64,000 bases of DNA, taken from positions 1-64,000 of the forward strand of contig NZ_NFJZ01000005.1 of NCBI RefSeq assembly GCF_002160135.1, given 5' to 3'. A program made the position numbers and the translations under genes. Below the pieces are notes generated by a model that had not been told where the DNA came from, searched no databases, and saw nothing but the letters and a program-made list of their open reading frames with translations. This document shows positions 5,598-9,480 of the stretch, in pieces. The DNA comes from Lachnoclostridium sp. An196. Lineage in GTDB: Bacteria > Bacillota > Clostridia > Lachnospirales > Lachnospiraceae. Within the stretch, counting starts at the first letter, position 1. Each line of letters starts with the position of its first letter.

Positions 5598-8138
5598 TTA
5601 TACATACCCGTCCACGTACTGTTCAAATTCCTCCATGGACATCAGCACCTTTCTCGGTTTTGTGCCTTCTTCTTCTCCTACCACACCTGCTTCCGCCAGC
5701 TGATCCATGATCCTGGCCGCACGGTTGAATCCAATTTTAAACCATCTCTGCAGCATTCCGATGGAAGCCTTGTCTTTCTCGATGATAAATTTTCCCGCAT
5801 CCACAAAAAGCACATCCCTGTCATTGTTTCCGCCTCCTGACAGAGCCGCAGAGGCACTTTCAATGGATGCCTGCACCTGCTTCATCCTGTCCTCCACGTC
5901 AGTCTCCTGCGCCGGCAGCATACTGGTCTGATTTTTCAGAAATTCTACCACTGCGCCCACTTCCTGATCCGAGACAAACGCTCCCTGTACGCGCAGAGGC
6001 TTGGGCAGCCCATATGGAGAAAACAACATATCTCCTTTACCCAGCAGTTTTTCCGCACCGTTCATATCCAGAATCGTGCGGGAATCTACGCCTGAAGAAA
6101 CGGCAAAGGCAATTCTGGAAGGCATATTCGCTTTGATCAGGCCGGTAATCACATTGACAGAAGGTCTCTGTGTGGCAATAATCAAATGAATTCCTGCCGC
6201 TCTGGCAAGCTGAGCCAGACGGCAGATGGCGTCCTCCACTTCTCCGGGAGCGACCATCATCAGATCTGCCAGCTCGTCCACAATAATCACGATCTGCGGC
6301 ATTTTCTCCCGGTATTCCCCGCCTTCTATTTTGGCGATTGAATCAATTTTACTGTTATATCCTTCAATATTGCGCACATTCAATTCTGCAAATTTCTGAT
6401 ACCGGTCCATCATCTCCACCACTGCCCAGTTCAGTGCTCCTGAGGCTTTTTTCGGATCTGTTACCACGGGAATCAAAAGATGCGGAATTCCATTGTAAGC
6501 ACTTAGTTCTACTACTTTAGGATCAATCATGATCAGTTTTACTTCATCCGGCCTGGCTTTGTACAAAATGCTCATAATAAGAGTATTGATACAGACTGAT
6601 TTTCCTGAACCGGTAGCGCCTGCGATCAGAAGATGGGGCATCTTGGCTATATCTGAGACCATAATATTTCCTCCGATGTCTTTTCCAACCGCAAAAGCAA
6701 CCCTGGACGGATGGTTCCTAAATTCCGCAGACTCCAGAAGTTCTCTCAGCGGCACTACAGAATTCTCTTTATTGGGCACTTCAATCCCTACCGCCGCCTT
6801 TCCCGGAATCGGAGCTTCGATCCGAACATCTGGTACTGCCAGATTTAATTTGATATCATCGGCCAGAGCAATGATTTTATTCACCTTTACGCCATGGGCC
6901 GGCTGCACCTCATACCGTGTTACTGCCGGACCCTGACTCGCGTCGGTAACTGTCGCGTTGACTCCAAAATCTTCCAGAATCTGCTGGAGATGTCCTGCCG
7001 TCTCCTGCAGACGGGCGCCGGAATCTTTCTTTCTGGAATCTTTTTTTACTCCTTTCAGCAAAGAAAGCGGCGGGAACTGATATTCCGCGGATTCTTCCGC
7101 CTCTTTTTCCTGCTCCGGAGCACGGACATCATTCGCATTCTTTTTCTCACGCTGCTGTTCTCTGGCTTTTTCCTCCTCCAGTTCTCTTTTGCTAAGAGCA
7201 TTTTTCAAAAGATCTTCTTCGTTAAATTCAATCTCCCGGATACCCCCTGTCCCCAAAGATATTTCCTGAGGTTCTTCTTTCTTCACGGGCGAAGGTTTAT
7301 GAACCGGGAATGATAATTCCGGTACTACAGCATCCTCCGGCACAGGCATAGATACCTCTTCTTCCGGCATCTTTTCTGATATCTCTTCCCGCTCCTCCGG
7401 CTTTGGAATCGTCAGATCACGGGATACCCCGCTTATCTTTTTCTCCGTCCGCTGTTCTCGTCTCTGTTCCTCCCGCTGCTCCCGGCGTATCTTCGCGTCC
7501 TCCCTGCGGCGTTCCATGTCCTGTCGGGCCGTGTCGTATACCTTCCTGCTTCCTTTTGACATGCTGCTCACGAAAGAAAATCCCGTCACTATAACCGCGC
7601 AGATGATCAGGACGCCCAGAAGGATCAGGACCGCTCCGGCCGTGCCGAACGCGCCTTCCAGACCCGTGAAAATTCCTCCGCCTATCAGACCTCCGCCGGT
7701 TCTGTATTCTTTGCAATACTGGAATATCTGTCCCAGGCCTTCGATCTGCCTGTCCCCGGAAGAAAGCAGATGCAGCAGGGCGCAGATATCCACGCACCCC
7801 GCCAGGGTGCCTCCGATCTTTACAGAAGCTATCCAGTTTTCCCGATTGGCCAGAGAAAACAGGATTAAAAGCATCAGAACAATCGGGAACAGATAGGCGA
7901 ACAACCCAAAACAGCCAAACATCAGACCGCTTACCGCACTGCCCACAGCCCCTCCGGCTCCCAGATTACTCACGAATAAAAACACGGTAACCACCAGCAG
8001 AACCACCAGCAAAACTTCATCCCAAAGCCTGTTTTCCCGTTCTGTTGTCTTCCTGCTCTGCGTATCAGTTTTTCTTTTTGTATTTTTTCCGGTAGAAGCA
8101 GTTCTTTTCCTGCCTCCGGATGACTGGTTTCCACTCAT
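5598..8138 (-). CDS. ftsK: FtsK/SpoIIIE-family DNA translocase
   Basis: 846 residues. The protein pumps chromosomal DNA through the closing septum, or into the forespore if it serves as SpoIIIE. Transmembrane segments occupy about residues 40-190, then a charged Glu/Arg-rich linker to about 350. The motor domain has Walker A GATGSGKS at 507-514 and Walker B IVIIVDEL at 616-623, and a winged-helix gamma domain (about 780-846) reads polar DNA motifs. The ATG at 8138 is preferred over the longer frame because the upstream 53 codons run into the terminator of the HPr gene; AAGGAG lies about 15 bases before it, a slightly long spacing. Confidence 0.93.
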
Positions 8139-8191
8139 ATTATAATTCTGTCGCTCCTTTTCTGTCAGATCTCCTGTATAATTTCCTGTAA

Positions 8192-8220
8192 AAAGGACTC
8201 GTCCCAAGGACCAGTCCTTT
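8192..8220 (-). terminator. Terminator of the HPr-like gene
   Basis: On the - strand AAAGGACT pairs with AGTCCTTT (stem arms 8220-8213 and 8199-8192), and T's continue beyond the second arm. It lies 24 bases after the HPr-like stop and before ftsK. Confidence 0.65.
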
Positions 8221-8244
8221 ATTATTTTCCTATGAAATGCAGTC

Positions 8245-8502
8245 TTAAAGATTTTCTTCAAAGAAAGCCTGTATCTCTTCGGCTGCCGCATCTTCATCCG
8301 GACCGTCGACTGTCACCGTCACCGTATCCTGGTATCTGATATCCAGATTGATCAACGAAAGAAGATGCTTCAAATCTCCCTCCCTGCCCCTGTTGGTCAC
8401 GATGATATCACTTTTAAATTCCTTGGCAAGCTGGAGAATCAACCCAGCCGGACGCGCATGCATCCCCAGTTCCTCTCTGATGGTATACTGAAACGTCCTC
8501 AT
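8245..8502 (-). CDS. HPr-family phosphocarrier protein lacking the regulatory serine
   Basis: 85 residues, full HPr length. The active-site His15 is present in GMHARPAG, so phosphotransfer is possible. At position 46, where Firmicutes HPr carries the serine phosphorylated by HPr kinase (usually KSIMGVM), this protein has histidine (LKHLLSLI). It is thus the opposite of Crh, which keeps Ser46 and loses His15. It is likely a second, non-catabolite-repression HPr working with an unknown partner, not the main PTS carrier; no PTS genes are nearby. GGGAGG lies before the start, and an extended -10 promoter precedes it. Confidence 0.8.
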
Positions 8503-8528: not shown

Positions 8529-8557
8529 ATTATAGCACAGGGCCCCCTGAAAGTAAA
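8529..8557 (-). promoter_or_regulatory. Promoter of the HPr-like gene
   Basis: On the - strand, TTTACT (8557-8552) and TATAAT (8534-8529) are spaced by 17 bp, with TG one base before the -10 (TGCTATAAT, extended -10). Confidence 0.6.
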
Positions 8558-8571
8558 TGAAAAGAGCTGCC

Positions 8572-9480
8572 TTACAGCCTTTCGAGCAGATTCCGAAAGT
8601 ATAGCGGCAAAGGTGCTTCCACCTCCAGATACTGTCCGGTCACCGGATGAACGAGTCCGAGAATCATGGCATGCAGTACCTGTCCATCCACGTTTTTGAC
8701 GCTTTTTCCTGCTCCATAAACCGTATCCCCCAAAAGCGGATGATGAACAGAGGCCATATGCACTCGGATCTGATGAGTTCTTCCCGTCTCCAGCCGGCAT
8801 TCAATATAGGTAAAATTCTCAAATCGCCGCAGCACGCGATAATGAGTCACTGCACGTTTGCCGTTTCTCTCATTGACCGCCATCCGTTTCCGATCTGTGG
8901 GATGTCTGCCTATCGGCGCATCTACCGTCCCTTCCTCTTCGCGGATCACTCCATGGACAATTGCACGATAGACACGTGTAATCGAATGCACTTTCAGCTG
9001 CTCTGCCACCGATCGATGCGCCTGATCCGTTTTGCAGACAACCAGGACTCCGGTCGTGTCTTTGTCAATGCGATGAACAATTCCCGGACGCAGTACGCCG
9101 TTGATCCCTGACAGTTCATCTCCGCAGTGATACATAACCGCATTTACCAGCGTACCGGTATAATGTCCCGGCGCAGGATGAACAACCATCCCTTTGGGTT
9201 TATTCACAAACAAAAGACTGTCATCCTCATACAAAATCTCCAACGGTATATTTTCCGGCAGAATCTCCGGATCTTTCAGTTCCGGGAGTTCGACCGTCAC
9301 CTCATCTGATTCGTCCAGCCTCATCCCGGGCTTGGCGTTTTTTCCATTTACCTGTATCTGCCCATCTTTGATCAATTTCTGCAGATAAGACCTGGACTGA
9401 TCCGGCAACACGACGCTCAAGTACTTGTCCAGGCGCTCTCCTGCCGTATCATTTTCCACTTCCAGACAAATCCTGCTCAT
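8572..9480 (-). CDS. RluD-family pseudouridine synthase
   Basis: 302 residues. It isomerises uridines in large-subunit rRNA (RluC/RluD/RluA branch). An S4 RNA-binding domain (RLDKYLSVVLPDQSRSYLQK to about residue 75) precedes the catalytic domain with the aspartate motif HRIDKDTTG. A C-terminal GRTHQIRVHMASVHHPLLGD block is also typical. The start overlaps the lspA stop by four bases, the lspA-rluD order common in Firmicutes. The exact rRNA position cannot be read from sequence. Confidence 0.9.
   Translation of the reverse strand: MSRICLEVENDTAGERLDKYLSVVLPDQSRSYLQKLIKDGQIQVNGKNAKPGMRLDESDEVTVELPELKDPEILPENIPLEILYEDDSLLFVNKPKGMVVHPAPGHYTGTLVNAVMYHCGDELSGINGVLRPGIVHRIDKDTTGVLVVCKTDQAHRSVAEQLKVHSITRVYRAIVHGVIREEEGTVDAPIGRHPTDRKRMAVNERNGKRAVTHYRVLRRFENFTYIECRLETGRTHQIRVHMASVHHPLLGDTVYGAGKSVKNVDGQVLHAMILGLVHPVTGQYLEVEAPLPLYFRNLLERL

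Follow-up and report, generated by a model that had tools for sequence, protein, structure and literature searches.

An HPr paralog with His15 and without Ser46 in Lachnoclostridium sp. An196, and a possible division of labor between HPr and Crh-like proteins in Lachnospiraceae

The window, a stretch of 64,000 nucleotides from contig NZ_NFJZ01000005.1 of Lachnoclostridium sp. An196, carries on its minus strand a gene for an HPr paralog of 85 amino acids (8245-8502, ATG start), as indicated by profile matches, alignment, and an AlphaFold2 model. The protein scored above the cut-offs of both PF00381 (85.9 bits, cut-off 23) and TIGR01003 (77.1 bits, cut-off 47.9), and its predicted structure (mean pLDDT 94) has the HPr fold, with the HPr chain 1ptf as best PDB match (TM 0.94). 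Residues 5-73 could be aligned without gaps to solved HPr chains, such as 1ptf, which places the phosphocarrier histidine of the H-x-R-P motif at position 15 (GMHARP; codon at 8458-8460, minus strand) and a further histidine (codon CAT, 8365-8367, minus strand) under Ser46, the serine targeted by HPr kinase (HPrK). Since the numbering of the ORF itself likewise yields H15 and H46, position 46 is not misaligned. Helix B comprises residues 47-51 in the predicted model, with residue 46 immediately before it, at the helix start.

With its fold, His15 motif, length of about 85 amino acids, and membership of both the Pfam and TIGR01003 families, the protein resembles Firmicute HPr (PtsH), from which it differs in lacking the Ser46 of HPrK-regulated forms (KHLLS versus the KSIMG of 1ptf-type HPr) and in being encoded outside any pts operon. 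Bacillus Crh is also an HPr-fold paralog encoded outside the pts operon, but it is characterized by the opposite pattern, namely Ser46 without His15. An HPr with His15 and without Ser46 is already known from engineered ptsH1 (HPr-S46A) laboratory mutants, in which position 46 is described as no longer phosphorylated (PMC9631020, PMC4634974), whereas the state described here is natural, lineage-wide, and mostly due to a basic residue rather than alanine.

Upstream of the gene we identified a putative extended -10 promoter (TTTACT-17-TATAAT, with TG before the -10 element; 8529-8557, minus strand) matching the consensus at 10 of 12 positions. Although the consensus match alone is weak, given that 14 sites were found in the 7-kb region versus 8.8 ± 2.9 in shuffles, the promoter was kept in both relatives aligned (G006, and G007 with one changed -10 base), a comparison that took in three of the eight genomes with an ortholog of the gene. 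A putative intrinsic terminator, consisting of a hairpin followed by a U run (8192-8220, minus strand), has a folding energy of -18.4 kcal/mol for a 62-nt stretch (z = -3.0), and 1 of 200 shuffles was equally good; the hairpin at 8220-8192 was absent from the output of a simpler terminator scan of the region. Based on these sequence signals, the gene likely has a promoter and a terminator of its own. Its upstream neighbor, which lies outside the system, encodes an RluD-type pseudouridine synthase (8572-9480, minus strand; Pfam), and its downstream neighbor is ftsK/spoIIIE (5598-8138, minus strand; Pfam), listed as an ORF of 5598-8297, the start of which was placed at MSGNQ from comparison with a relative (L066). 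No PTS genes were found by a Pfam scan of the ten ORFs between 3732 and 14386, which were of DHODB, zinc ribbon/Fn3, FtsK, RluD, LspA, AroB, SepF, alanine-racemase, and HlyD types, with one ORF lacking a match. The initial annotation had described the gene as keeping the phosphocarrier histidine while the HPr-kinase target is replaced, and as having its own extended -10 promoter and terminator and no PTS neighbors, a description that agrees with the results above, including the placement of position 46, which it had named as a possible source of error.

Among 17 genomes of the genus, some of them incomplete, eight encode an ftsK-linked ortholog (hereafter the window clade), while none was found in the other nine. 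The ftsK gene adjoins the HPr gene in all eight, and the gene upstream changes: it is of rluD type in four genomes and of CstA type in G005 (Pfam), of CstA type by look in G010, and, judged solely by motifs in the ORFs, codes for a ROK kinase in G002 and for a thioredoxin in G015. A single-gene unit located before ftsK and without a transporter would fit a regulatory carrier, that is, a dedicated NPr-like phosphocarrier receiving phosphate from enzyme I and serving a regulator or a non-sugar target. The likely stand-alone transcription of the gene and the constancy of ftsK beside a changing upstream gene are in keeping with such a role; however, the score with the NPr (PTS-Ntr) model was 40.1 bits, below the cut-off of 119, An196 yielded no second full enzyme I (the other PF05524 match is partial, with 25.3 bits versus a cut-off of 24.4), and the position beside ftsK may merely be the landing site of a duplicate. 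We consider an NPr-like role unlikely on balance.

Members of the window clade are 74%-91% identical to the window protein, His15 is invariant among them (8/8), and they are under purifying selection, with dN/dS between 0.03 and 0.15 wherever dS was computable (12 of 28 pairs; it was not for the other 16). These values, together with the retention of His15 and of the promoter where compared, speak against a redundant duplicate that lacks a distinct function and is being lost, for which the nine genomes without a detected ortholog, some incomplete, could be cited; we regard this explanation as very improbable. Position 46 is occupied by His in G000 and G006, Arg in G007, G013, G010, and G002, and Lys in G005 and G015; the clade conserves basic character at this position rather than histidine. 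A function of His46 itself, be it as a metal ligand or as a further phosphohistidine next to His15, could draw on its presence in both G000 and G006 and on its location at the start of helix B in the model, but the remaining six members have Arg or Lys, among them G007, the next closest after G006. We dropped a second role of His46 as the main reading for this reason, and give it hardly any credence. Ser49 (codon at 8356-8358, minus strand) is invariant in the clade (8/8), and could be a substitute phosphorylation site.

The distribution of the window clade was compared with that of EIIA domains matching PF00359, of which An196 has three. Of the 12 genus genomes with such a domain, 8 carry the clade, as opposed to 0 of the 5 without (Fisher p = 0.029, ignoring kinship); conversely, the domain is present in all eight carriers versus four of nine non-carriers. 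The link between the clade and EIIA content suggested by these counts is weak; in gene trees, six of the nine genomes lacking the clade group together.

Six HPr-type matches, five of them above the Pfam cut-off, were detected in the An196 genome (3.25 Mb, 97% complete). The HPr linked to enzyme I, encoded approximately 70 bp after ptsI, is H15/R46 (L007, 7619-7876). A Crh-like protein with E15/S46 (L008, 7287-7544) is encoded after murB, rapZ, and whiA, and an H15/S46 paralog (L009, 8049-8330) beside a sugar-type ABC transporter; the gene beside HPrs of the latter type encodes a protein without a Pfam match. Ser46 HPrs are thus present in An196, yet none of them adjoins enzyme I. The genome encodes one full-length enzyme I and one HPrK, with hprK and whiA on different contigs (C11 and C1). 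Two further HPr-like proteins of 77 amino acids (L005, 1486-1719; L006, 1450-1683) have KSIMG or KSILG and no His15 region, and partial HPr-like matches of this kind were listed for many relatives.

Across the genus, the enzyme-I-linked HPr is H15/R46 in all 17 genomes, and a Crh-like S46 protein was found in 16 (E15, or D15 in two), with whiA upstream in 15; it was not found in G009, a genome that is 77% complete. The initial annotation had envisaged the window protein as carrying phosphate for a branch free of catabolite control. A single freed branch beside a main PTS that stays under such control is not supported, since the enzyme-I-linked HPr itself has Arg46, and the annotation's emphasis on histidine at position 46 was misplaced given that six of eight orthologs have Arg or Lys. 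Its comparison of the protein to a mirror image of Crh is accurate in the literal sense, and An196 also encodes a Crh-like protein; as for the second, Ser46-containing HPr that it had suggested looking for, the L009 paralog does exist, although it is not the enzyme-I-adjacent copy. HPrs of the L009 type are present in all 17 genomes; 11 of them have His15 and 6 have Cys15, and the latter may constitute a second drift toward a Crh-like state. The six Cys15 paralogs (L049, L072, L081, L083, L088, and L096) occur in genomes with 0 or 1 PF00359 EIIA.

Trees were built after duplicates of one locus had been left out. The main tree comprised 176 HPr-type proteins with columns 15 and 46 removed, and excluded L064, L079, L097, the long-ORF matches L219 and L220, any match of fewer than 70 residues, and those rows of G000, G019, and G023 that were already present. 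The window clade (8 rows, SH-aLRT 99) was nested in a clade of 59 rows (SH-aLRT 89), of which 54 have a basic residue at position 46, and the basic-46 label requires 6 changes on the tree versus a mean of 47.7 when shuffled. The Crh-like rows fell in a separate group of 59 rows (SH-aLRT 96), which includes four divergent H15/S46 rows. A smaller tree (114 rows, all columns) was in agreement with the 176-row tree, and the inner forks of these trees are weakly supported owing to the 80 columns available. The simplest reading of the topology is that Ser46 would have been lost before the duplication that gave rise to the window gene.

Enzyme I was searched in 120 Lachnospiraceae genomes, one per genus, and the 30 best-scoring loci from these genomes were used, including that of An196 and leaving 29 other genera; because the best-scoring loci were selected, the survey is biased toward enzyme I types resembling that of An196. 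An HPr with His15 was found in the enzyme I flank of 20 of the 29 genera, with Arg or Lys at position 46 in 17, Thr in one, Ala in two, and Ser in none. Longer stretches around the remaining nine enzyme I loci contained no HPr either, and their HPr therefore lies elsewhere. In G068, the enzyme I flank also encodes another HPr-like protein, which has Ser46 but no His15. Adding G017, G018, G021, G024, and G177 to the 20, Ser46 was missing from 22 of 25 enzyme-I-adjacent HPrs of other family genera, and was kept in G017, G018, and G177. By comparison, an HPr-like protein encoded adjacent to whiA was found in 26 of the 29 genera, with Ser46 in all 26 and His15 in none, and in 17 of the 29, hprK was located on the same strand as whiA and no more than 10 kb away. 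No HPr-like gene was found near whiA in four family genomes (G053, G079, G088, and G017), longer stretches included. HPrs with H15/S46 that were not seen beside enzyme I were present in five of seven other family genomes (G017, G019, G021, G023, and G024).

Within the class but outside Lachnospiraceae, the enzyme-I-adjacent HPr has Ser46 in 14 of 20 loci and a basic residue in 6, this count leaving out 8 of 28 loci (six without a flanking HPr and two with long-ORF matches only). HPrK was detected in all six of these basic-46 genomes versus 8 of the 14 Ser46 genomes. An HPr-like gene beside whiA was found in none of the 19 out-of-family genomes having a whiA match, and longer stretches from five of the six basic-46 genomes (G178, G212, G203, G157, and G289) gave none either. 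The six genomes that combine a Ser46 enzyme-I-adjacent HPr with the lack of an HPrK match are G246, G259, G173, G284, G231, and G293, with enzyme I loci L225, L228, L230, L231, L232, and L240.

Two simple explanations for the loss of Ser46 were rejected on the basis of these surveys. Loss of HPrK does not explain it, as HPrK was detected in each of the 51 family genomes tested (among them the 17 of the genus) as well as in the six out-of-family genomes with basic-46 HPrs. A strict rule whereby the presence of Crh entails the loss of Ser46 from HPr also fails, since G018 and G177 have a Crh besides their Ser46 enzyme-I-adjacent HPr, and the six out-of-family basic-46 HPrs occur without a whiA-adjacent HPr-like gene. 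Accordingly, the split between HPr and Crh is not strict in the family.

In HPr, His15 serves PTS transfer and Ser46 serves HPrK (PMC12445079, PMC9631020). HPr phosphorylated on Ser46 is a poor substrate of enzyme I (PMC12445079), HPrK failed to phosphorylate the S46A variant of Thermoanaerobacterium aotearoense HPr (PMC4634974), and S46D HPr is called impaired in the title of PDB entry 1sph. From these known roles, an HPr with His15 only would be expected to carry PTS phosphate and to be insensitive to HPrK. We consider it probable that the window gene encodes a working, HPrK-blind carrier that originated as a duplicate in a Ser46-less lineage, with the kinase/CcpA signal residing on other proteins, above all the Crh-like one. 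The protein would be phosphorylated on His15 by the one full-length enzyme I of An196 and would donate this phosphate to at least one EIIA domain, while HPrK would be unable to switch it at position 46, where a basic residue at the start of helix B (His here, Arg or Lys elsewhere) replaces the kinase serine. Such a residue would have a charge state opposite to that of phosphorylated Ser46, and might be expected to favor interaction with enzyme I. The duplication presumably took place inside an old Ser46-less lineage to which the enzyme-I-linked HPr of the genus also belongs, and the kinase/CcpA signal would be borne chiefly by the E15/S46 protein. In this reading, the sequence features, copy numbers, gene contexts, tree position, and purifying selection are observed, and phosphate transfer, insensitivity to the kinase, the EII partners, and a role of Crh as principal HPrK substrate are inferred.

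In the usual account of carbon control in Firmicutes, one HPr carries both phosphates, and sugar uptake and gene repression are consequently coupled on one molecule. It is conceivable, and we propose this tentatively, that the two jobs of the main HPr are split in much of Lachnospiraceae, with Ser46-less enzyme-I-linked HPrs carrying PTS phosphate and the kinase signal passing through Crh-like proteins unable to do so. If this were true, the main PTS flux would not be throttled by HPr-Ser-P, the third HPr type, with both sites retained, would form a side branch, and the coupling would be gone or shifted to that branch in a large family of gut fermenters. Crh, a back-up to HPr in B. subtilis (PMC9631020), would then be a main co-repressor, and sugar-preference models derived from Bacillus would not transfer. 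The family would also provide a natural test of why both sites usually sit together. Taken by itself, the window gene is a modest find; of more interest is the possible division of labor between Crh and the main HPr across much of the family.

Homologs of HPr, HPrK, Crh, and CcpA have been reported in T. saccharolyticum (PMC3526391), and a Crh-like protein with apparently no HPr ortholog in C. cellulolyticum (PMC3656788). The evolution of HPr has been treated previously, with no Ser46-less Firmicute lineage in the available parts of that work (PMC2405797), and among the matches listed from the open-licence literature we found no description of a Ser46-less HPr as the rule in Lachnospiraceae.

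Other variants at position 46 and other gene neighborhoods were encountered among the relatives. HPr paralogs with H15/D46, in which aspartate is a natural mimic of phosphoserine, were found in L054 (4069-4338), L059 (4029-4301), L078, L094, and L074, and one with N46 in L063. The gene for the H15/D46 HPr of L054 comes last in a mannitol PTS operon comprising an EIIC/IIB/EIIA protein and mannitol dehydrogenase (Pfam), and the gene order in L059 matches it by look. Very divergent HPr-like proteins with Glu46 are encoded in L064 (4084-4344), beside a glucitol-type EIIA and a PRD regulator, and in L079 (3903-4286). Finally, a CstA-type transporter of 574 amino acids is encoded directly before the window-clade HPr in L062 (2202-3926) and L077 (2224-3948), with Pfam confirmation in L062 only.
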